Assembly: GCA_038851035.1 (NCBI GenBank)
Contig: JAWCLH010000023.1
Span: forward strand, 1-45,643
Reading direction: 5' to 3'
DNA: 45,643 bases
Origin: Thermoplasmata archaeon
Lineage (GTDB): Archaea; Thermoplasmatota; DTKX01; VGTL01
The notes under the pieces were generated by a model. It had not been told where the DNA came from. It saw only the letters and a program-made list of their open reading frames with translations, and ran no database searches. Within the stretch, counting starts at the first letter, position 1. Every line of letters starts with the position of its first letter. The translations under genes were made by a program, and so were the position numbers. Shown here piece after piece: positions 29,917 to 40,344 of this stretch.

Positions 29917-31449
29917 CTACACAACGGGGCTCAGCCTGACGCTGGGCGGGCCCCTCTCCGGGTCCGGGGTGATCACGAAAACGTTCGTCCTCGGGCTGAC
30001 CCCGTACATGCAGACCGAGTTGTTGATGTCAAGAATTCTGATGTATGTGTCGGCCATGTTCATGATCTCCTGCGTGAGCTTCAGGCCCGGCTTGAGGATG
30101 CCGACGCCCACGTCCTCGGATATCTTGATTCTGCCAACGGTGTTGAAGAGGTCCCTTATCGCGATGTCGTTACCGCGCAGGTACTCCAAGGTGTCGAAGG
30201 CGGCGAAGTCCATTATCGGTCTGTTCTCCGGGCCCCTGAGGCTCTGGAGGACGTTCCTCCAGTTGCGCAGCGCCTCCTCCTTGTTTCTGGTCCCGAGGGC
30301 GAGGATGTAGGGCTTCCGGGTCTCCTGGATGAAGTAGTCCGCGATCTGGACGAATCTGTCGAATAGGGAGGGGTCCAGGAAGCGGGTTAGGTCGTCTCGC
30401 AGAGTGTCGGCTTGGTCGCCGCCCGGCAAGACCACGATGGCACCCCTCTGCTGGGATATAAAGTTGAGCAGGATCGGCCTGACGAGCGAATAGTACTCCT
30501 CCGTGGAAACGTTCCCTGCGACCTCGATGACGTTGTAGCTGCCCTTCCTGAAGCCACCACCGAGAAGGGCGTCGAGGTCGGGCGTGCCTGTGCTGTAGTG
30601 GCCCGGGCCGTCGGGAATCGGTTCCCAGCGCTTTGGCTCGCCAATGGCCCTGAAGGGCTCGAAGGTCCTGAACCTACCCCCGTGAAGGCTGATGAGGTAC
30701 CGGGGGCGCTGAATCTCCGTCGCCCTGAGCTTCTCGATGCGCATCTCCCTGACCCGCCTCCCCTCGACCTCCATCATGTCCAGAACAACGACGCCATCGG
30801 CGAGATAGTCTATCGAGGTCGCGACGCCCTTCTCAAGAATGACCAGCATGTCGACGTTGGAGTGCTCGACCAAGTCCTTCTGGAGCGCGTGGACCAGCTC
30901 CTCGGGCGGTAGGCCGTAGCGCGTCGTGATGCCCTCGACGCTGTCAATAGCGAAGAAGCTCTTCCGGGGGAGGCACGCCTCGACCCTGTCGTAGATTCTG
31001 GATATCTCGGGAATCGTGTAGCGCTCGAGAAGCTTGGAGAGACAGGTCCTGTCCACCTCCTCGGGCGCCTCCTCTCTGGGGCCATGGAGGGACCGGAGGA
31101 ACTCCTGCGCCCCCTTTATCCTGACTGCCTTCTCTTTCTGCACCTTAGTCTCCGCTTTCTCCTCCCTGTATATCGTGGCAAGGAACTCCCTGCTCGCATC
31201 CACGATTCTGGCCCTCATGTCCTTCTCCCTGAGCCAGGGGAATTGGACATAGAGCGAGGCGTCAGATACTCGCGTTGACAGGTAGAAGCTCGCCTCCGGG
31301 TCGGCGATCTCCTCGAGAATCTGGAGGGCGAGCGTGGTCTTTCCCGTGCCGGCCAGCCCCTTTATGATGAGCGATTTTCCTCCTGGCCTGCTGAAGAACT
31401 CGGACAGCTCCCCCGGAACTCCAAGCGCGACGCCCTCCCTTTTTCTCAC
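29917..31449 (-). CDS. Double KaiC/GvpD-like ATPase (first P-loop intact, second lost)
   Basis: 510 residues from a GTG at 31449 with GGGGGAGGA four bases before it (a TTG at 31470 is an alternative). The first domain has Walker A GLAGTGKT at residues 31-38, a Walker-B-like FFAIDSVEGI (about 164-173) and ends with GGRFRTFEPF. The second (about 280-510) begins with TGTPDLDALLGGGF, the standard KaiC entry, but has AGNVSTEEYY where the P-loop should be, so it should not bind ATP in the normal way. The first half is a longer relative of the protein at 6574-7464. This is the last gene of the run with artA. A regulatory role is inferred from the family only. The stop is TAG. Confidence 0.85.
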   Translation of the reverse strand: MRKREGVALGVPGELSEFFSRPGGKSLIIKGLAGTGKTTLALQILEEIADPEASFYLSTRVSDASLYVQFPWLREKDMRARIVDASREFLATIYREEKAETKVQKEKAVRIKGAQEFLRSLHGPREEAPEEVDRTCLSKLLERYTIPEISRIYDRVEACLPRKSFFAIDSVEGITTRYGLPPEELVHALQKDLVEHSNVDMLVILEKGVATSIDYLADGVVVLDMMEVEGRRVREMRIEKLRATEIQRPRYLISLHGGRFRTFEPFRAIGEPKRWEPIPDGPGHYSTGTPDLDALLGGGFRKGSYNVIEVAGNVSTEEYYSLVRPILLNFISQQRGAIVVLPGGDQADTLRDDLTRFLDPSLFDRFVQIADYFIQETRKPYILALGTRNKEEALRNWRNVLQSLRGPENRPIMDFAAFDTLEYLRGNDIAIRDLFNTVGRIKISEDVGVGILKPGLKLTQEIMNMADTYIRILDINNSVCMYGVSPRTNVFVITPDPERGPPSVRLSPVV

Positions 31450-31500
31450 GATTCCTCCCCCGAATTCCAATTTCTGAGCTCGATATGTGCATCGGGTTAT

Positions 31501-31995
31501 TTACCTTTTAGCCCATTCCCGGGGTGCTCCCCGCACCGCGCCGCCGGCCCCCGGAGTCTCTCGGCTTGCACGCCCGTCCCCTCTCGCCACGTGGCTCCTT
31601 ACGCGTTTCACGTACATCAAGGGATAGCTCATCTCCCTCACGAAGTGCATGCAGCAGTGGGCCTCCGCGCTGCCGTAGCGCGTGACCACCTCGACCCGGA
31701 GCATGGAGCCGTCGAGGGTCTTGTACCTGTACCTGCCGGCAAGCCCCCTAAGGGCGGCTCTATCTATTTTTGCGCTCGCCCTGACCACCCAGGGCTGGAT
31801 TTTCACAGCTTCCACAATCGCCTTCTCGAGGGAGCCGGCGCTGGCCATCGTCACGGGAACTCCCACGAACTGGTGGTAGACCATCGCGAGCTTGATTCCG
31901 CCCTCGAAGACGGCCCTCTCCGCGTCGGTGCAGTGAAAGTACTTCCTCGCCCTATCCAAGGGAACACCCCGCGAGAGCCGCTCAACGCCCCACAT
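31501..31995 (-). CDS. mptD: Archaeal dihydroneopterin aldolase (MptD type)
   Basis: 164 residues. The family core is clear: ERAVFEGGIKLAMVYHQF (about 25-42), the 'LEKAIVEAVKIQPWVV' helix, YRYKTLDGSMLRVEV and the closing SYPLMYVKRVR. MptD cleaves dihydroneopterin to hydroxymethyl-dihydropterin and glycolaldehyde in tetrahydromethanopterin/folate-type cofactor synthesis. The usual length is ~120 residues; here a ~30-residue Arg/Gly/Ala-rich tail is added. It is cytosolic. It follows pssA by 42 bp and precedes the KaiC-like gene by 51 bp, so it is probably in the same operon although its pathway is unrelated. Confidence 0.92.
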   Translation of the reverse strand: MWGVERLSRGVPLDRARKYFHCTDAERAVFEGGIKLAMVYHQFVGVPVTMASAGSLEKAIVEAVKIQPWVVRASAKIDRAALRGLAGRYRYKTLDGSMLRVEVVTRYGSAEAHCCMHFVREMSYPLMYVKRVRSHVARGDGRASRETPGAGGAVRGAPREWAKR

Positions 31996-32037
31996 ATCTA
32001 TGAACCTTGCGTCGCGTCGGTCCTCGACCCCTCCCCC

Positions 32038-32784
32038 TCAGCCGTTCCTTGCGGCTGGGGCACGGGCCCCGGGCCTCCGACCCGTCGCGAATGGGCCAAA
32101 GGTCACATAGGCGACTGAGAGAAGCAGGGCGAGGTCGAGGAGGAATTCGAATAGGGGCGCCCCCGCCCCCGCTCTCTCGGTGACGATGACAAGGAATATC
32201 ACCACACCAGAGGAGACGGCATAGGTCCCTCGCACCTTCGGGTACCGGAGGTCGCTGATCATCAGCAGCCCAAGTAGCGCGAGAGCGAGGGGCCTCAGAA
32301 TTCCGGGCAATGGTGTCTCGCTCAGCTCACCCTGCAGTGAGAGCAGCGCCACCACGAGGGCGCTTGCGGGCGAGGGGAGGCCGGTGAAGACGGAGGAGTG
32401 GCCACCGCCCATGTAGCAGAACCGCGCCAGCCTGAGGAGGCCGCAGACCACGGAGGTTGCGCATGCAGCGAATAGGACGATATCCGAATGGGCGCCGGCG
32501 AGCTCGCGCATCGCACCTCGGGAGGTGACGAAGACCACCACCGCGGGCGCCACGCAGAAAGAGGTGGTGTCGGCCATCAAGTCGAGGTAGTCTCCGAAGT
32601 ACCACTTACGGCTGAACCTTCGGGCGAGGAGGCCGTCGAGACCATCGCAGAGAATTCCAAGGAGAATCGTATAAATGGCGAAGAGCACCTCTCCCTCCAG
32701 CACTAAAAGAATGGCGAGAAAGCCGAGAAGAGCGTTGGTCAAGGTGAAGAGGTCCGCGATCGAGACCATGCGCAGAATTCTCAA
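32038..32784 (-). CDS. pssA: CDP-archaeol serine transferase (archaetidylserine synthase)
   Basis: 248 residues from a TTG at 32784 overlapping the pssD stop (TTGA), or the ATG at 32769. The CDP-alcohol phosphatidyltransferase motif is complete: D-G-x2-A-R-x8-G-x3-D-x3-D in DGLLARRFSRKWYFGDYLD followed by LMAD. There are about seven hydrophobic segments. It transfers serine to CDP-archaeol in the membrane. In haloarchaea PssA and PssD make archaetidylethanolamine and are needed for lipid anchoring of ArtA substrates; the same trio is adjacent here. The C-terminus is a short Arg/Ala-rich tail. Confidence 0.93.
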   Translation of the reverse strand: MRILRMVSIADLFTLTNALLGFLAILLVLEGEVLFAIYTILLGILCDGLDGLLARRFSRKWYFGDYLDLMADTTSFCVAPAVVVFVTSRGAMRELAGAHSDIVLFAACATSVVCGLLRLARFCYMGGGHSSVFTGLPSPASALVVALLSLQGELSETPLPGILRPLALALLGLLMISDLRYPKVRGTYAVSSGVVIFLVIVTERAGAGAPLFEFLLDLALLLSVAYVTFGPFATGRRPGARAPAARNG

Positions 32785-33419
32785 CGGCTCCCCCTCCCCT
32801 CCCCCCTTCCGGGGGCCTCCGCCAGAGTCGTGCTTCCCGCCTTCACTCTCTCTCCCCTTCGCGCCCTGAGCTTGAGCCAGCCGGCGGGGACGAAGAGATC
32901 CACACGGGACCCGAACCGTATGATGCCGATTCTATCCCCCTTCGAGAGCTCCTGCCCCGCCCTCACATACGTCACGATGCGCCTCGCAAAGACCCCGGCG
33001 ATCTGCGTGATGAGAATTCTACCGAGGCTGCTCTCGAGCGTGATGACCACTCTCTCGTTCCTGTCCGCCTTCTTCCTGTAAGCGGGGGCGTGGCCGCCGG
33101 GCACCCGCCTCACCTCCACCACCCTCCCGGGCCATGGCGCTCTGTTAACATGGACGTCGTGTATGTTCATGAATATCGAGAAGTACGCTCCGGCCTCCGT
33201 AGCCTCGGCGCGTGTGAGGAGGCCGTCCGCGGGCGAGACGATGCCCTGGCCAATTTTTCTCTCCGGATCCCGGAAGAAAATGGCGAATACCACTGAGATT
33301 CCAGTAAACACGGCAAAGAGGATGATCGCGGGGATAGCGCTCCAGATGGCGATGAGCAGGGAAACCAGCGCTAACACCGCGGGAACGGCCACAATACGGA
33401 GGCACCCCTTCGCCAGCAC
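32781..33419 (-). CDS. pssD: Archaetidylserine decarboxylase proenzyme
   Basis: 212 residues from a GTG at 33419. Two hydrophobic segments (about 8-48) precede the decarboxylase core. Visible motifs: VSPADG with Asp65, FMNIHDVHVNRAP with His87/His90, and the self-cleavage site IRFGSRVDLF, where Ser171 should become the pyruvoyl group. The protein is the short archaeal type. It converts archaetidylserine to archaetidylethanolamine at the membrane. It overlaps pssA by 4 bp and follows artA by 39 bp. Confidence 0.94.
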   Translation of the reverse strand: MLAKGCLRIVAVPAVLALVSLLIAIWSAIPAIILFAVFTGISVVFAIFFRDPERKIGQGIVSPADGLLTRAEATEAGAYFSIFMNIHDVHVNRAPWPGRVVEVRRVPGGHAPAYRKKADRNERVVITLESSLGRILITQIAGVFARRIVTYVRAGQELSKGDRIGIIRFGSRVDLFVPAGWLKLRARRGERVKAGSTTLAEAPGRGEGRGSR

Positions 33420-33458
33420 CCTTACCCCGCTCCGCAGTGCAACTGGATTTTGTGTTTA

Positions 33459-34775
33459 TTACTCTTCCTCTCTCTCTCCTGTACGACTCGCCTCTCCACC
33501 TCCGACCCCGCCCGACACAGACACACCGTCCTCAACTCCCTCCCCCTCCCCCATTCTCCTCGTGCCTCCAGTCCCTCGGCCGCGGCCGGTGGTGCCCCCG
33601 TCCGATTCCACGCCCTCCACCCCGCCGCCCGCTCTCTCTACCACCGCGCTTTCCCCCTTGGCCCCAGCTACCCGCTCAACCGGTTTCCCACCATCCTCAG
33701 GCATCCCGTCGGTCGTCCGGGGCTCCTCAGCCCTCCCGAGCCGGTAAAGCTCGAGCAGATCGTCGTATATTTCCGGCACAAGGTCGAACACTATCATTGC
33801 GAGCGCGAGAAGGACGAGGAAGCTGAATAGCTTTCCCAGATACCCGTGGGCGACGTCGAAGCTCGTTGTCCCGCTGTTCACCAGCCAGATGATGCTTATG
33901 TTGCGCACCAGGTTGAGAACCCATATTGGTGGAATCGTGTAGAGCAGGGCCCGGGCGCGCCTCTCGGGCCAGCTCATCTTCATGTACTTCTTGATGCGCT
34001 TTCCGATTCTTTTGTAGCCGCTCCACGGGTTCTCGCGGGGCTCGATGCAGAGGAAGGCCCCTAGGAAAATCACAATCGCCTCGATGCCAGTGCAGGCAAG
34101 GATTATCGAGATGCCCGAGCCGATGACGGGCACGGATATCTCGCCCGTGGCGGCGTCTACGACCGGACCCCCGACCACCGTGCTTGCGCCGAGGAGGTTG
34201 TAGAGCCAGGAAGTCTGGGCGGCGGTGGCCCATATCAGCGCGCTCGATAGGGCGGGCACCTTCGCAAATAGGAAGTAGGTCCCAGCGGCCACGAAGGTCA
34301 TTCCCGTGATGAACCTCAGCGCCCTACGGTCCCCACCGCTCTTCCAAGCCCTCCACTCGTATATCGAGAAGACAGTGAAGAGCGCGAGGGCGGGCGCGTA
34401 CAGAAGCACGTTTATCGGGTCGTCGGGGTGGAGACTTACGTAGTTCGGAACCTCGAGCATCCAGTAGATACCGAAGGCCTGCCAGCCCACGATTGACGTG
34501 AGGTGGCCCTCGGCCTTGTTATGCATCAGGTATCCCACGCCCAACATAACCAGTCCCGTGAGCAGGGAAACGCTCATCAGGGCCGACGCAACGCGGTCGC
34601 CGCGGCCGGGGCTCCAGAGCATCACTGCAATCAGGAGGCCCATGCACCAAATATAAACGGCTGCGAAGAGACGAGGCTCTCTCCTTAGATAGTGGGCGCA
34701 AACCCCCGTGATTCCGATCGCGCCGACAAGAAAAGGAGTCGCGAGGTCCATCCTGCGCCAGCCCCTATACCGCAT
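33459..34775 (-). CDS. artA: Archaeosortase (ArtA-like)
   Basis: 438 residues from the ATG at 34775, whose first base is the last base of the upstream stop (TGATG); the ATG at 34751 is an alternative. Eight or more hydrophobic segments. The exosortase/archaeosortase catalytic set is present: Cys228 in ILACTGIEAI, Arg291 in LNLVRNISI and His310 in FDVAHGYLGKL. ArtA cuts C-terminal sorting signals and enables lipid attachment of surface proteins. The ACTGI motif and the adjacent pssD/pssA match the haloarchaeal ArtA system. A ~90-residue Gly/Glu/Arg-rich tail after the last helix is unusual. Candidate substrates in the window are the beta-helix/PKD protein (37891-40344) and perhaps the C11 protease. 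Confidence 0.93.
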   Translation of the reverse strand: MRYRGWRRMDLATPFLVGAIGITGVCAHYLRREPRLFAAVYIWCMGLLIAVMLWSPGRGDRVASALMSVSLLTGLVMLGVGYLMHNKAEGHLTSIVGWQAFGIYWMLEVPNYVSLHPDDPINVLLYAPALALFTVFSIYEWRAWKSGGDRRALRFITGMTFVAAGTYFLFAKVPALSSALIWATAAQTSWLYNLLGASTVVGGPVVDAATGEISVPVIGSGISIILACTGIEAIVIFLGAFLCIEPRENPWSGYKRIGKRIKKYMKMSWPERRARALLYTIPPIWVLNLVRNISIIWLVNSGTTSFDVAHGYLGKLFSFLVLLALAMIVFDLVPEIYDDLLELYRLGRAEEPRTTDGMPEDGGKPVERVAGAKGESAVVERAGGGVEGVESDGGTTGRGRGTGGTRRMGEGEGVEDGVSVSGGVGGGEASRTGEREEE

Positions 34776-37558
34776 CAGATACCGGTTATCAGCGTGTCCA
34801 CCAGCTTCTTCGCTCCCCAGAGCTTGCTGGTGTCCCCGTCCCACTTTTCCAGCATGGAGCCGTACCTCTCCTCGAGCTCCTGAATCACCCTCCTCATCTC
34901 CCTCCTCTTCTCCTCCGGCTCCCTCCCCGTGACCACGAGCGCCACATAGACATACTTCCCGCTCTCGAGCAGAATTCTCGTCTTGCCGTACCTGAGCTCG
35001 TTCAGGACCTCCGCGTCCCTCAGCCGGAAGGACTCGCCGATGAAGTTCTGAATCGCCACGAGCATCCCGCCGAGGAGCTGGTTGTCGACCTCGGGCCTGA
35101 GCCTCCGGGTGTTGTGGTGAATCAGCCTCCCGTCCCTATATATCAGGAACAGTTCCTCGATTGTGTACTCAGGGACCCTCTTGTCCGAGACGGCCTCTAT
35201 CCTCTTCATCCTCTCGACCAGAAGCGTGACGATCTGGTCGAGCTCGCCTATCCTGAAGTAGGTGTTGACCGCTTTCTGGTATAGCATCTTGGAGTAGGGG
35301 AGCTTGCCTAACCTTTCCTCGAGGTAACCGAGCCTCTCGTAGGCCTCCGCGAGTCTGCGGAGCTCCCCCGACTTCTCGAAGAAGTGAATCGCAGCCTGGA
35401 GGGCCCGCCTGGTCTTGTCCGATTCCTCCGGGGTCAATGTCGGCTGCTCCAGACTCTTGAGCGCGGCCCGGAACCCCTCCTCGATTCTCGCGGGCAGTTT
35501 CTCCTTCTCCTCCCTCACCTCCGCCTCGAGCTGCCTGAGCAGCTGCATCGCCCGCTCGTGCTCCCCGGCGTCGGCGGCTGATATGGCTCTCTGGAGCAGC
35601 TGCTCGGCCTTTCCAGGGTCCATTCCAAGCTCGACCGCCTCGTCCGTGGCGTCCATCGCCTCCTTGATCGCCTCACGCGTCCGTCTCGCCTTCGCCTCCG
35701 CTTCCGCCCTCAGCACACCCTCCCTCACCCTGCGGGCTATCTCCGCCTCCTCCCTCGCCTGCCCAAGGAGGAGAATTCCTCTCTCGAATTGCCCCCTTGC
35801 CAGAGCCTCCCTCACTGCCGAGAGAATTCCCTCGCTCTTCGAAGTGTCGGCGCCCATTCCCCTCGCGTTGGCAATCATCTGCTCGACCGCGCTCACGAGC
35901 GCCGCCGCCCTTTCGCTCCTCGCGGCCTCGACTATCTCGAGCGCCTTCGAGGTGAGCTCCGTCCCTCTATCATAGTCGCCGCCATCGAATGCGGTCCTCG
36001 CCTTTTCGAACAGCGAGGCGGCCCTCGAGACCTCCGCCCCCAGCTTCTGTGCGTTCTCGATTATCACAGAAGAGCGCTCCGCGAGCATCCTGAGAATCTC
36101 TCGGTTGCGGATCAGCTCGAGCTTGTCGCGCAGGCCGACAGCGAGGAGTTCCCCAGTCGCGCTCGAGGCCATCGAGAGCATCGGGTCCCGGCCTGAGTAC
36201 CTGAATAGTAGCCTCCCCGCGCGATCGTAGGAGTAGAGGTGCCGGCCATCCGCGGCATACACCGCACTCCCGTCCGCCGAGATGGCCAGATGGGTTATCG
36301 AGTCCTCCGTTCTGGACTTCCAGCTCACCGCCCCAATCTTGGAGAAGACAACAAGGTCGTTTCCCTGCGAGCCCGCCGCGAGAGTCTCGCCGTCCCGCGA
36401 AATCGCCACGGCGCTCCAGATGCCCCCCATGTGCTTCCACCTGAGGAACACGTTTCTATCGTAGCAGTAGACGTTGTGGTCCTTGAATGTCACCAGAAGG
36501 AGGTCCCCATCGCCAGAGACCGCGAGCCGCCAGCCCGGCCTCTCGGTCCAGTGCTTCCCGGTGAGGTTCCCCTCCCTGCTGACGACGTATATGTTGTTGT
36601 CGCTAGCGGAGCAGAGTACCGTGCCATCCTCTGTGACGTCGAGTGAGACCGCCGCTCCCCCCATCCTAAACGCCCAGAGTCTCCTCCCCACGGCGTCGAA
36701 GCAAACCAAGCTTCCGTCGCCGCAGCCCGCCACAACCGTTTTCCCATCATGGGACACTTTCAGAGCAACCCCACGCTCGGGGAGGGGCTGGGACCATAGA
36801 GGCTTTCCCGTTCGCTCGAATGCGTGGAGCCTCCCGTCGCCCGCCGCAGCGCAGGCGAAGCCGCCGTCCGGCGCGATTGCAACCGCCCTCACCTCTGGCA
36901 AGGGCACCCTCCACAGCCTGACCATCTTCCGCCCGGTGTTGGCAAACTCACGCGCTAGCTCGAGGTTCTTATCCACCTCGTCGTAGAACCCCCTTTCCAT
37001 GCTCGTCCGTGCCGCCCGGACCAGGTACTCCGCCTTATCCACCCTCGCCCCGCAGCGCGCCGCCTCTTCGATGATGAGCTTCGTCTCAGCGATTCCGGCA
37101 GCGTACCTGCGCGCCGGCACCCCGAGCTCCTCAAGCACCATCGCCGCGGCCTCGCGCGTGTCGCTCTTCTCGCTCTCCAGAAGCCCCACCAGCTCCGGCA
37201 TGCGCTCCTCAACGACCTCGCTCGCGGAGGAGGCGTGCTTGCGCAGCAGGGTCAGTGCTTCGGCGGGGTTTTCCCTGAAGCGGGCCAGTCCATCCAGCAC
37301 CGCCGCAACGATTTCCCTCCGGAGGTTCGAGCGGCTCTTGGCAAGCGAATTCAGCAGGTTGAGGGAGGCAACGCGTACCTCCCCCGACTGATCCCCGAGA
37401 GCCTCGACGATGCGCGGAACCGCCGCCACGAGGGCCTTCGGGTCCTCGTCCGCAAGCGCCGAGAGCTCCCTGATGAGCTTGAGCTTCCGCTCCGTCCCGG
37501 CCGGGCCGAGCTCGCGCGATAGCCTCTCGGCCTTCTTCGTCAAGTCGCCGAATATCAT
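34775..37558 (-). CDS. Cytosolic scaffold: HEAT repeats, beta-propeller, helical-hairpin repeats, longin/roadblock-like end
   Basis: 927 residues; no signal peptide or membrane span. Residues about 1-150 are HEAT-like helices (VEALGDQSGEVRVASLNLL). A helical hairpin lies at about 155-215, then a seven-bladed WD40/PQQ-type propeller at about 215-490 with repeated 'SxDGxxxxAGxxDGxLxxFD' blades. Three more hairpins follow (about 495-550, 550-610 and 628-685) with A..ll..A...l..G....A spacing, then a TPR-like stretch (about 700-770). The last ~155 residues (LFLIYRDGRLIHHNTRRL … QNFIGESF … ILLESGKYVYVALVV) have the pattern of longin/roadblock-like response modules. The gene is translationally coupled to artA (TGATG) and heads the operon from a TATA box at 37584-37597. 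Function unknown; a scaffold is inferred from the repeats. Confidence 0.88.
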   Translation of the reverse strand: MIFGDLTKKAERLSRELGPAGTERKLKLIRELSALADEDPKALVAAVPRIVEALGDQSGEVRVASLNLLNSLAKSRSNLRREIVAAVLDGLARFRENPAEALTLLRKHASSASEVVEERMPELVGLLESEKSDTREAAAMVLEELGVPARRYAAGIAETKLIIEEAARCGARVDKAEYLVRAARTSMERGFYDEVDKNLELAREFANTGRKMVRLWRVPLPEVRAVAIAPDGGFACAAAGDGRLHAFERTGKPLWSQPLPERGVALKVSHDGKTVVAGCGDGSLVCFDAVGRRLWAFRMGGAAVSLDVTEDGTVLCSASDNNIYVVSREGNLTGKHWTERPGWRLAVSGDGDLLLVTFKDHNVYCYDRNVFLRWKHMGGIWSAVAISRDGETLAAGSQGNDLVVFSKIGAVSWKSRTEDSITHLAISADGSAVYAADGRHLYSYDRAGRLLFRYSGRDPMLSMASSATGELLAVGLRDKLELIRNREILRMLAERSSVIIENAQKLGAEVSRAASLFEKARTAFDGGDYDRGTELTSKALEIVEAARSERAAALVSAVEQMIANARGMGADTSKSEGILSAVREALARGQFERGILLLGQAREEAEIARRVREGVLRAEAEAKARRTREAIKEAMDATDEAVELGMDPGKAEQLLQRAISAADAGEHERAMQLLRQLEAEVREEKEKLPARIEEGFRAALKSLEQPTLTPEESDKTRRALQAAIHFFEKSGELRRLAEAYERLGYLEERLGKLPYSKMLYQKAVNTYFRIGELDQIVTLLVERMKRIEAVSDKRVPEYTIEELFLIYRDGRLIHHNTRRLRPEVDNQLLGGMLVAIQNFIGESFRLRDAEVLNELRYGKTRILLESGKYVYVALVVTGREPEEKRREMRRVIQELEERYGSMLEKWDGDTSKLWGAKKLVDTLITGI

Positions 37559-37583: not shown

Positions 37584-37597
37584 TGATAATATAGATG
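37584..37597 (-). promoter_or_regulatory. TATA-box-like promoter of the scaffold-artA-pssD-pssA run
   Basis: The minus strand reads ACATCTATATTATC, about 32 bp before the ATG at 37558, predicting a near-leaderless mRNA. No other TATA-like box is obvious between the later genes, whose gaps are at most 51 bp. Confidence 0.55.
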
Positions 37598-37603
37598 TTG
37601 GTC

Positions 37604-37890: not shown

Positions 37891-40344
37891 ATGGAAGGGA
37901 AGGCTCACAGAGAGGGCTCCAGAATGGGATTTCTGAGTATGCTGGTTGTGCTATTTATGATGGTTCCGGCCCCACCGTCCGTGGCGATGGAGCCGGCCGG
38001 TGAGGGACCGGCAGGCGCGCGGGCCTACACGCCGCGCGCGCCGATAAAAATAGAGGGCTCCGAGGGGTTCACTCCGGAGAACGGCGTCACCGGGGGCTCG
38101 GGCCATGAGGACGACCCGTACGTGATAAGCGGCTGGGAGATAACACCGGCATCGAGCCACGGAATCGAGATCTATTTCGTAACCACCTACCTGACCATAC
38201 GGAACTGCAGGATAAAGAACACCCCCGCCGGTTTCGCCGGTCTATCTATCAATTTCACGGATGCCATCATATCCGTGGAGCACTGCGTCTTCGAAGGGAA
38301 CGACGTCGGGGTCCAGCTGAATGGCATGTATTATCCAGCCACAATCTCCAACTGCTCCTTCACCGGGAACAGAATAGGCGTCAGGTGCGGAACATCCCTT
38401 CAGGTGCAGGACTGCACCTTCTCCGGCGGGACGGGCGTCACGCTCGAGGAACATCCGTCCGGTAAAATCAAGTTCAGCACCTTCAAGGACCAGATCGCAG
38501 GTGTAAAGGTCACAGGGTCTCTGGAGAAGCTTTATGTCATGAACAACAGTTTCTCCGGTGTCCAGACCGCCCTCAGCATGGATAACTGCAAGGGCGACTA
38601 TAATAAAGGAAAGTGGGGGCATGTCACCGGCAACGTCTTCTCTGGAGGGACGGTCGGCGTCTCCGTGAACGGCAGCGGATTCTGTTCCATCTACAGAAAC
38701 ACGTTCGAGGATGTCCCGACCGGTGTCTCCATGTCGAACGTCCCCTCCTCCGTACCGGTCTATAACAACGATTTCCTGCGCGGAACCACAGGAATCGAGC
38801 TCGCGTATTGTACCAACGGCACGATAAACAACAACAACTTCACAGGCGCCTCGTCCTACGCGGTGAGCCTCAAAGGAAGCCGCTACAATACGATAATTGA
38901 CAATCACTTTAAGGACAACAATGCGGGCGGCCGCCAGGCCTACTGCGACAAGAGCGAGAACATATGGAACCTCTCCGGTGAAAAAGAGTGGGACAGGGAG
39001 AAAAACTGGTGGAACGGTCTGTCGAGCGCCCACGGCAACCACTGGAGCGACCTCAGCAGGCCCGACTCGGACAGGGATGGCTTCGTGGACACCGGCTACG
39101 AGCTCGGGGGCGGCATGGCCGCCGACATGAGACCCATGAGCACCCCGCCGCCGAGGTGCGGGAACGTCCCCGACGGGACCCTCTTCTGCTCCGTGGACGC
39201 GGACAGGACGACCGGCGCCGCTCCCCTGACCGTGGAGTTCAGGGGGCTGGTCGTGTGCGACGACAGGACGCCCTACCCCTTCAGATACGAGTGGGACTTC
39301 GGCGACGGGGCGACCGCGGAGGGCTTCTGCGCGCTCCACACCTACAGCACCCCGGGCACCTACACCGCCCGCCTGACGGTGACGGACCAGGATGAGAGGG
39401 AGTGCTCGGCCACGAAGACAATAACGCCGGGCGCCGCGCCGGCTCCGCTGGAGGCCTCCGCGTCCGCGGACAAAACGAGCGGCGAGGCCCCCCTCACGGT
39501 CTCCTTCACGGCCTCCGCGACCGGAGGCACCCCGCCCTATACCTACGCGTGGGAATTCGGCGACGGGGAGACGGGCGCGGGCGCCTCCGTGAGCCACACC
39601 TACGCCGCCGCTGGCACGTACTCCGCGGTCCTGACCGTCACGGACTCCGAGAGCCAGACGAAGAAAGCCGCGGCGCTCACCATCACCGTGACCTCCGGCG
39701 GAGCGGCGCCCCTCTCCGCCTCCGCCTCGGCCGATAGGACCTCGGGCCCGGCGCCCCTCTCCGTCCAGTTCACGGGCGTCGCGAGCGGCGGCACCCCGCC
39801 CTACACATTCAGCTGGAGCTTCGGCGATGGAGCCACGGGCTCGGGCTCGCCCGTCAGCCACACCTACACATCAGACGGCATTTACGACGTCGTCCTGACG
39901 GTGACCGACTCGAAGTCCGTGACGAAGACCGCCCCGGTAATCACCATCACGGTCGGCGGGGGCGGGGGCTCGCAGCTGGTGGTTGCGGCCTCGGCCAGCC
40001 CGACCTCCGGCCCCGCGCCGCTCAGGGTCCAGTTCACGGCCTCCGCGTCCGGCGGGACCGAGCCCTACACATTCGAGTGGAGCTTCGGCGACGGGACGAA
40101 CGGCACCGGTGCCAGCGTCACGCACAGGTATGAGAAGAAGGGCACCTACACCGTTCTCGTGACGGTGAAGGACCGGGAGGGCCAACAGCGCTCCTCCACA
40201 GTGACAATCGAGGTGAAGGAGAAGCCCAAGGAGATCCGGAGCCAGCCGGGGCTCGGGGCGCTGGCGGTGGCCGCGGCCCTCGCGACAGTTGTGGTGCTCC
40301 GGGCGCGGAGGAGGGGAGGACCGGACGGGGGAGGGGGGCAGTGA
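37891..40344 (+). CDS. NosD-like beta-helix/PKD surface protein with sorting-type C-terminus
   Basis: 817 residues; AGGTGAGAGG precedes the ATG at 37891. Signal peptide about 1-32. The entry motif GFTPENGVTGGSGHEDDPYV with VISGWEI is typical of archaeal NosD/right-handed beta-helix proteins, and the helix runs to about residue 370 with repeated 'N.F.G….V….' coils. Four PKD domains follow (about 430-780), each with WDFGDG, WEFGDG or WSFGDG. The end is PGLGALAVAAALATVVVLRA, then RRR and a short Gly-rich tail: a motif, a hydrophobic span and a basic cluster, as in PGF-CTERM archaeosortase substrates but with Leu for Phe. It is probably processed by the ArtA encoded nearby. It is 332 bp divergent from the artA operon and overlaps the next gene. 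Confidence 0.92.
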   Translation: MEGKAHREGSRMGFLSMLVVLFMMVPAPPSVAMEPAGEGPAGARAYTPRAPIKIEGSEGFTPENGVTGGSGHEDDPYVISGWEITPASSHGIEIYFVTTYLTIRNCRIKNTPAGFAGLSINFTDAIISVEHCVFEGNDVGVQLNGMYYPATISNCSFTGNRIGVRCGTSLQVQDCTFSGGTGVTLEEHPSGKIKFSTFKDQIAGVKVTGSLEKLYVMNNSFSGVQTALSMDNCKGDYNKGKWGHVTGNVFSGGTVGVSVNGSGFCSIYRNTFEDVPTGVSMSNVPSSVPVYNNDFLRGTTGIELAYCTNGTINNNNFTGASSYAVSLKGSRYNTIIDNHFKDNNAGGRQAYCDKSENIWNLSGEKEWDREKNWWNGLSSAHGNHWSDLSRPDSDRDGFVDTGYELGGGMAADMRPMSTPPPRCGNVPDGTLFCSVDADRTTGAAPLTVEFRGLVVCDDRTPYPFRYEWDFGDGATAEGFCALHTYSTPGTYTARLTVTDQDERECSATKTITPGAAPAPLEASASADKTSGEAPLTVSFTASATGGTPPYTYAWEFGDGETGAGASVSHTYAAAGTYSAVLTVTDSESQTKKAAALTITVTSGGAAPLSASASADRTSGPAPLSVQFTGVASGGTPPYTFSWSFGDGATGSGSPVSHTYTSDGIYDVVLTVTDSKSVTKTAPVITITVGGGGGSQLVVAASASPTSGPAPLRVQFTASASGGTEPYTFEWSFGDGTNGTGASVTHRYEKKGTYTVLVTVKDREGQQRSSTVTIEVKEKPKEIRSQPGLGALAVAAALATVVVLRARRRGGPDGGGGQ

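Follow-up and report, generated by a model that had tools for sequence, protein, structure and literature searches.

The lipid-anchoring cassette of one family of Thermoplasmatota appears to have been extended by a gene for a large cytosolic scaffold, which directly precedes the archaeosortase gene artA and ends in a roadblock-like C-terminal domain (CTD) of a family described here for the first time. Genomes of the phylum that encode this domain nearly always encode one family of Ras/Rab-like GTPases as well. We tentatively propose, at somewhat less than an even chance, that the scaffold serves a GTPase network as a soluble adaptor and is made together with ArtA so as to position or gate the lipidation of surface proteins. 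The window in which the scaffold was found (the whole stretch analyzed, 45,643 nucleotides) is one entire contig of a genome, G000, that measures 2.69 Mb and is 99% complete.

Organization of the Run

Six genes, all on the minus strand, occupy positions 29917-37558 in the order scaffold, artA, pssD, pssA, mptD and an ATPase gene at the end (Table 1), which confirms the layout given in a preliminary description of this DNA. The stop codon of the scaffold gene and the ATG of artA (34775) have one base in common (TGATG). Downstream, 39 bp separate artA from pssD, which in turn shares 4 bp with pssA, and 42 bp lie between pssA and mptD; the last gap measures 30 bp from the TTG start of the end gene, or 51 bp from a GTG at 31449. 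AT-rich promoter-like elements were seen upstream of the scaffold gene and of pssD, and no such signal precedes artA, pssA or mptD in either G000 or its relative G001. Single-site chance levels for these elements are 0.01-0.05, and the promoter evidence is therefore weak. Since the signals stand before both scaffold and pssD in both genomes, two transcripts are possible, and the earlier view of a single six-gene unit is not supported. From this layout, the scaffold gene and artA are likely to form one transcription unit, and pssD onwards may form a second; it is plausible that scaffold and sortase are made in a fixed ratio.

Table 1. Features of the run and of the scaffold protein, with positions in the window.
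Feature	Coordinates	Strand	Evidence
AT-rich promoter-like element upstream of scaffold	37588..37599	-	similar element in G001
Scaffold gene, 927 aa	34775..37558	-	ORF and domain matches; ortholog in G001
HEAT-type alpha-solenoid, residues 4-211	36926..37549	-	Pfam HEAT_EZ/HEAT; AF2 helices, pLDDT mostly 65-85
Seven-bladed WD40/PQQ-type propeller, residues 223-475	36134..36892	-	Pfam; AF2; Foldseek; phmmer PDB
Helical hairpin repeats, residues 479-685	35504..36124	-	AF2; repeat also in other large G000 proteins
TPR-like region, residues 688-790	35189..35497	-	AF2; clear match in the family's two scaffolds only
CTD, roadblock/longin-superfamily domain, residues 797-925	34784..35170	-	profile-profile and fold comparisons
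artA, archaeosortase A, 438 aa	33459..34775	-	TIGR04125, 109 bits vs cut-off 75
Possible internal promoter, an AT-rich promoter-like element before pssD	33455..33466	-	present in both genomes
pssD-like archaetidylserine decarboxylase	32781..33419	-	PF02666; NF003685 over cut-off (PSD family)
pssA-like archaetidylserine synthase	32038..32784	-	PF01066 clear; NF038087/NF038086 below cut-off
mptD-like dihydroneopterin aldolase	31501..31995	-	PF04038, 6.6e-36
GvpD-family/KaiC-like ATPase	29917..31470	-	PF07088, PF20440, PF06745

The Scaffold and its C-Terminal Domain

The scaffold had been characterized as a cytosolic protein with HEAT, propeller, helical-repeat and longin-like parts in that order, and this architecture is supported by Pfam, AlphaFold2 (AF2), Foldseek and profile evidence and by a protein sequence in which no transmembrane (TM) segment was found. 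In the AF2 model, which was built from two sequences, the HEAT, propeller and helical-repeat portions (the last spanning residues 479-790) mostly reach a pLDDT of 65-85, and the final 138 residues are without a confident model. Foldseek matched the propeller to WD40 propellers, with a TMt of up to 0.79. Eukaryotic coat and adaptor complexes, which are recruited by GTPases, employ HEAT, propeller, solenoid and longin subunits, fold types that are united here in one chain; beyond folds there is no sequence relation, and the idea of a coat protein is retained only as a resemblance of fold types.

The CTD, of approximately 130 residues, occurs about 12 times in G000, and in most of these proteins TM segments are present and the CTD follows the last of them as a cytosolic tail. 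It is found behind PKD/cadherin-like surface domains and a TM helix, behind a 7-8-TM region and, in tandem, behind a multi-TM region; one AAA-type ATPase contains it internally, and a soluble propeller protein other than the scaffold carries it too. The ATPase case (L083:5300-8014, on C32 of G000) is unusual: the protein, of AAA/STAND type and with TPR-like repeats, has its Walker A region split off from the rest by the inserted CTD. Each of the five genomes compared within the class encodes a conserved multi-TM protein that carries two CTDs in tandem (L080:6743-8467, L097, L098, L095 and L100), and in two of these genomes, G003 and G004, its gene adjoins that of a Ras-like GTPase.

Neither Pfam nor NCBIfam holds a model for the CTD. 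When an alignment of 46 members was compared with Pfam, weak Robl_LC7 matches appeared in 5 of the 46 (best E 0.005), together with one Fuz_longin match, and the Pfam gathering cut-off of Roadblock/LC7 (PF03259) was not reached. In profile-profile comparison with 21 archaeal roadblock proteins (Robl_LC7), hhalign returned a probability of 90% with a score of 39.7 over 97 columns, far above the maximum of 17.9 among 59 column-shuffled controls and the 17.0 of a reversed one. The top Foldseek matches of the CTD model (pLDDT 42) were largely longin or roadblock proteins, namely MglB many times, Sec22b, VAMP7, TRAPP, AP sigma and LAMTOR, although the model is of low confidence and the matches, with E values of at least 0.9, are not individually significant. 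A PDB sequence search returned no credible relative, and no relative was found in the viral contigs searched. On the profile evidence, membership of the CTD in the roadblock/longin superfamily is well supported. The CTD defines an undescribed family of roadblock-like domains, and many receptor-like proteins end in a member of it.

Association with Ras/Rab-Like GTPases

Roadblock proteins are known partners of Ras-like GTPases (PMC4316618). Eight members of one Ras/Rab-like GTPase family are encoded in G000, and among 145 Thermoplasmatota genomes this family is present in 16 of the 17 with a CTD as opposed to 3 of the 128 without (neither is present in 126). The three exceptions all have weaker GTPase matches. 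This co-occurrence spans nine families and gives a Fisher probability of 2e-17, a value uncorrected for shared ancestry. The canonical Robl_LC7 family is associated with the GTPase far more loosely (11 of 34 genomes, p 0.012). Proximity points in the same direction: six GTPase genes have a CTD no more than 1.5 kb away, where 1.25 would be expected (p 0.002), and the cases in G003 and G004 represent one genus. In G000, the 3 kb on either side of each CTD gene contain no GTPase gene, and none was found near the artA operon.

The CTD resembles the roadblock partner of MglA/MglB-type pairs in that it co-occurs with, and sometimes adjoins, a Ras-like GTPase (PMC4316618). It differs from MglB-type proteins in being divergent, with no Pfam or NCBIfam model of its own, and in forming part of large scaffolds, of membrane receptors and of an AAA-type ATPase; its functional tie to the GTPases is suggested by the co-occurrence and proximity of genes. 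Similarly, Streptomyces conservons combine a membrane sensor, a roadblock protein and a small GTPase in one system (PMC4316618); there the components are separate genes at one locus, whereas here sensor-like and roadblock-like parts share one polypeptide and the GTPases are mostly encoded elsewhere.

These associations bear on a rival account of the CTD, in which no GTPase takes part and the domain is a dimerization or tethering module only, pairing the soluble scaffold with membrane proteins through their CTD tails. Roadblock and longin domains commonly dimerize, and most CTD proteins of G000 are membrane-bound, some with tandem CTDs. Against this account stand the near-perfect co-occurrence of the CTD with a single Ras-like GTPase family, much tighter than that of Robl_LC7, and the adjacency of their genes in several genomes; we regard it as less likely than not, if by no means negligible.

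Conservation of the Scaffold-artA Coupling

Two of the five genomes compared within the class, G000 and G001 (a MAG, record VGTL01000070.1), belong to one family. G001 retains all six genes in the same order, with identities of 57% for the scaffold (residues 1-925), about 60% for ArtA, 61% for PssD, 66% for PssA and 67% for MptD, and with a gap of 3 nt between scaffold and artA. The genes flanking the run are not conserved in G001, save for a weak match to a large surface protein. In G002, from another family of the class, artA-pssD-pssA-mptD is kept, divergent surface-protein-like genes precede artA, and the GvpD ortholog lies elsewhere; G003 and G004 possess artA without its neighbors in the run. 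A HEAT-propeller protein of G002 (C50) was considered as a scaffold ortholog and rejected, having 24% identity and no CTD match on its contig.

Across the phylum, 40 artA neighborhoods were compared. In over half of them the gene for PssD lies beside artA or close by, which bears out the tie between artA and the lipid-anchoring enzymes that had been drawn earlier; pssA is found in roughly a third. Two neighborhoods include mptD and a single one, that of G001, the scaffold, and the gene preceding artA varies by lineage. Of 390 Thermoplasmatota genomes searched, only G000 and G001 yielded matches to the HEAT part of the scaffold, and the same two alone gave strong matches to its TPR part, with weak TPR matches in three more. 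A scan of genome contigs with only two N-terminal scaffold peptides had the G001 contig as its sole match and says little on absence. The comparison of artA neighborhoods that the preliminary description had called for therefore has two sides: the coupling of scaffold and artA is kept in the only other member of the family, and a general artA-scaffold partnership must be rejected, with the scaffold at 1 of 40 neighborhoods and in 2 of 390 genomes. Because its HEAT module is confined to the family's two genomes and it stands beside artA so rarely, the scaffold is, on the genomes searched, a family-specific rather than a general partner of the ArtA gene. The run is therefore a familiar core to which one family has added genes at either end: scaffold and end gene are later additions, whereas mptD is also attached to the core in a second family of this class.

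A scaffold found in only two genomes affords few independent observations of its link to artA, and this invites the suggestion that the two are neighbors only: the scaffold would be an ordinary member of a lineage-expanded CTD signaling family that happens to share a promoter with artA and acts on another target. The second soluble propeller-CTD protein of G000, which has no sortase nearby, is consistent with this, as are the restriction of the link to two genomes and the lineage-dependence of the gene before artA. What argues against it is the stop-start overlap in the window, and the adjacency of the genes, which is kept across genera despite differing flanks. We consider it somewhat unlikely.

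The Lipid-Anchoring Core

The artA-pssD-pssA core of the run is an already known lipid-anchoring cassette. Cys228, Arg291 and His310 of ArtA are invariant in an alignment of nine sequences, and we take the first two to be the catalytic residues of the archaeosortase family. The loop between Cys and Arg is longer (approximately 30 residues) in this class than elsewhere in the phylum, including in genomes that lack the scaffold. Homologs of pssA and pssD adjoin artA both in the window and in G001. The artA, pssA and pssD genes are likewise clustered in Methanosarcina, and the run has the three enzymes and archaeosortase-dependent lipid anchoring in common with that cluster and with the Haloferax volcanii pathway (PMC7157517). 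Unlike the Methanosarcina cluster, the run adds mptD, a GvpD-type gene and the scaffold, and unlike the run, Haloferax volcanii has its artA, pssA and pssD unclustered. Several lineages of the phylum have, directly behind artA-pssD-pssA or pssA-mptD, a gene that by appearance encodes a THEP1-like NTPase (L040:12860-13408, L051, L058, L060 and L072); the window has none there.

With regard to substrates, two PGF-CTERM tails of G000 exceed the cut-off and others fall below it, and the model also gives weak signals in control genomes. A divergent PKD/beta-helix surface protein is encoded beside the sortase operon (37891-40344, plus strand); its tail, QPGLGALAVAAALATVVVLRARRR, is PGF-CTERM-like but has PGL, and was not detected by TIGR04126. 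Judging from its position and tail, this protein is possibly a variant ArtA substrate.

In Haloferax, ArtA, PssA and PssD are found at midcell (PMC7157517). Together with the fact that PssA and PssD make headgroup lipids, this localization would also fit a broader role for the scaffold, as an organizer of the division site or of membrane lipid synthesis as a whole, with the sortase as one of several clients. The tightest coupling of the scaffold gene is nonetheless to artA, and pssD seems to have a promoter-like element of its own; we hold so general a role to be distinctly unlikely.

The End Gene

The protein at the far end of the run had been called a double KaiC-like protein, a label that does not hold. 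It belongs to the GvpD family, with both PF07088 (GvpD P-loop; 62 vs 24 bits) and PF20440 (bR2; 47 vs 28 bits) above their Pfam cut-offs, and no NCBIfam KaiC model reaches its own cut-off on this protein. It has one P-loop only, and the latter of its RecA-like halves is degenerate and without a Walker A motif (G-x4-GK[ST]). Orthologs in G001 (about 70-72% identity) and G002 (56%) show homology beginning near residue 17, and the true start is probably at about 31449. The P-loop and bR2 domains are common to the GvpD regulators of gas vesicles, but unlike the setting of those regulators, the run contains no gas-vesicle genes. In G002 the ortholog (L217, on C24) precedes genes that by appearance encode the folate enzymes formiminotransferase, cyclodeaminase and FTHFS; in the window, the gene comes after mptD, which encodes a pterin enzyme.

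A Proposed GTPase-Linked Adaptor for Surface-Protein Anchoring

We envisage that the ArtA-PssD-PssA cassette of this family gained a translationally coupled cytosolic adaptor, whose solenoid and propeller modules would serve as protein-binding platforms. The CTD would most likely bind or act on Ras/Rab-like GTPases, or pair with the CTD tails of membrane receptors, and the adaptor would most likely recruit or gate ArtA and the enzymes of lipid synthesis at certain sites, or in certain states, of the membrane. The link between scaffold and ArtA is suggested by gene coupling alone, that is, by the stop/start overlap in G000, the 3-nt gap in G001, a promoter-like signal before the scaffold with none before artA, and the retention of the run in G001 (57-72% identity) while its flanks differ. 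The adaptor role draws further on the superfamily match of the CTD, its co-occurrence with and proximity to GTPase genes, the cytosolic CTD tails on membrane proteins and the midcell gathering of the three enzymes in Haloferax (PMC7157517). Against it we count the presence of the scaffold in only two genomes, the lack of a GTPase gene near the operon, a co-occurrence value uncorrected for ancestry and the low pLDDT of the CTD model.

On the gene evidence, the arrangement suggests that the anchoring of surface proteins is under switch-like (Ras-like) control. In a broader form of this idea, which we deem unlikely as it stands, a Ras/Rab-like GTPase network with roadblock/longin-like regulators on surface receptors and on cytosolic HEAT-propeller-solenoid scaffolds, one of them made with archaeosortase, would decide where or when surface proteins become lipid-anchored. 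If true, this would amount to a prokaryotic counterpart, at the cell surface, of the adaptor proteins that GTPases recruit. What is new lies in the combination of a scaffold with a sortase cassette and in the undescribed domain family. A sortase-coupled adaptor bearing a GTPase-tracking domain would offer a testable link between small-GTPase signaling and envelope building outside the Asgard archaea.
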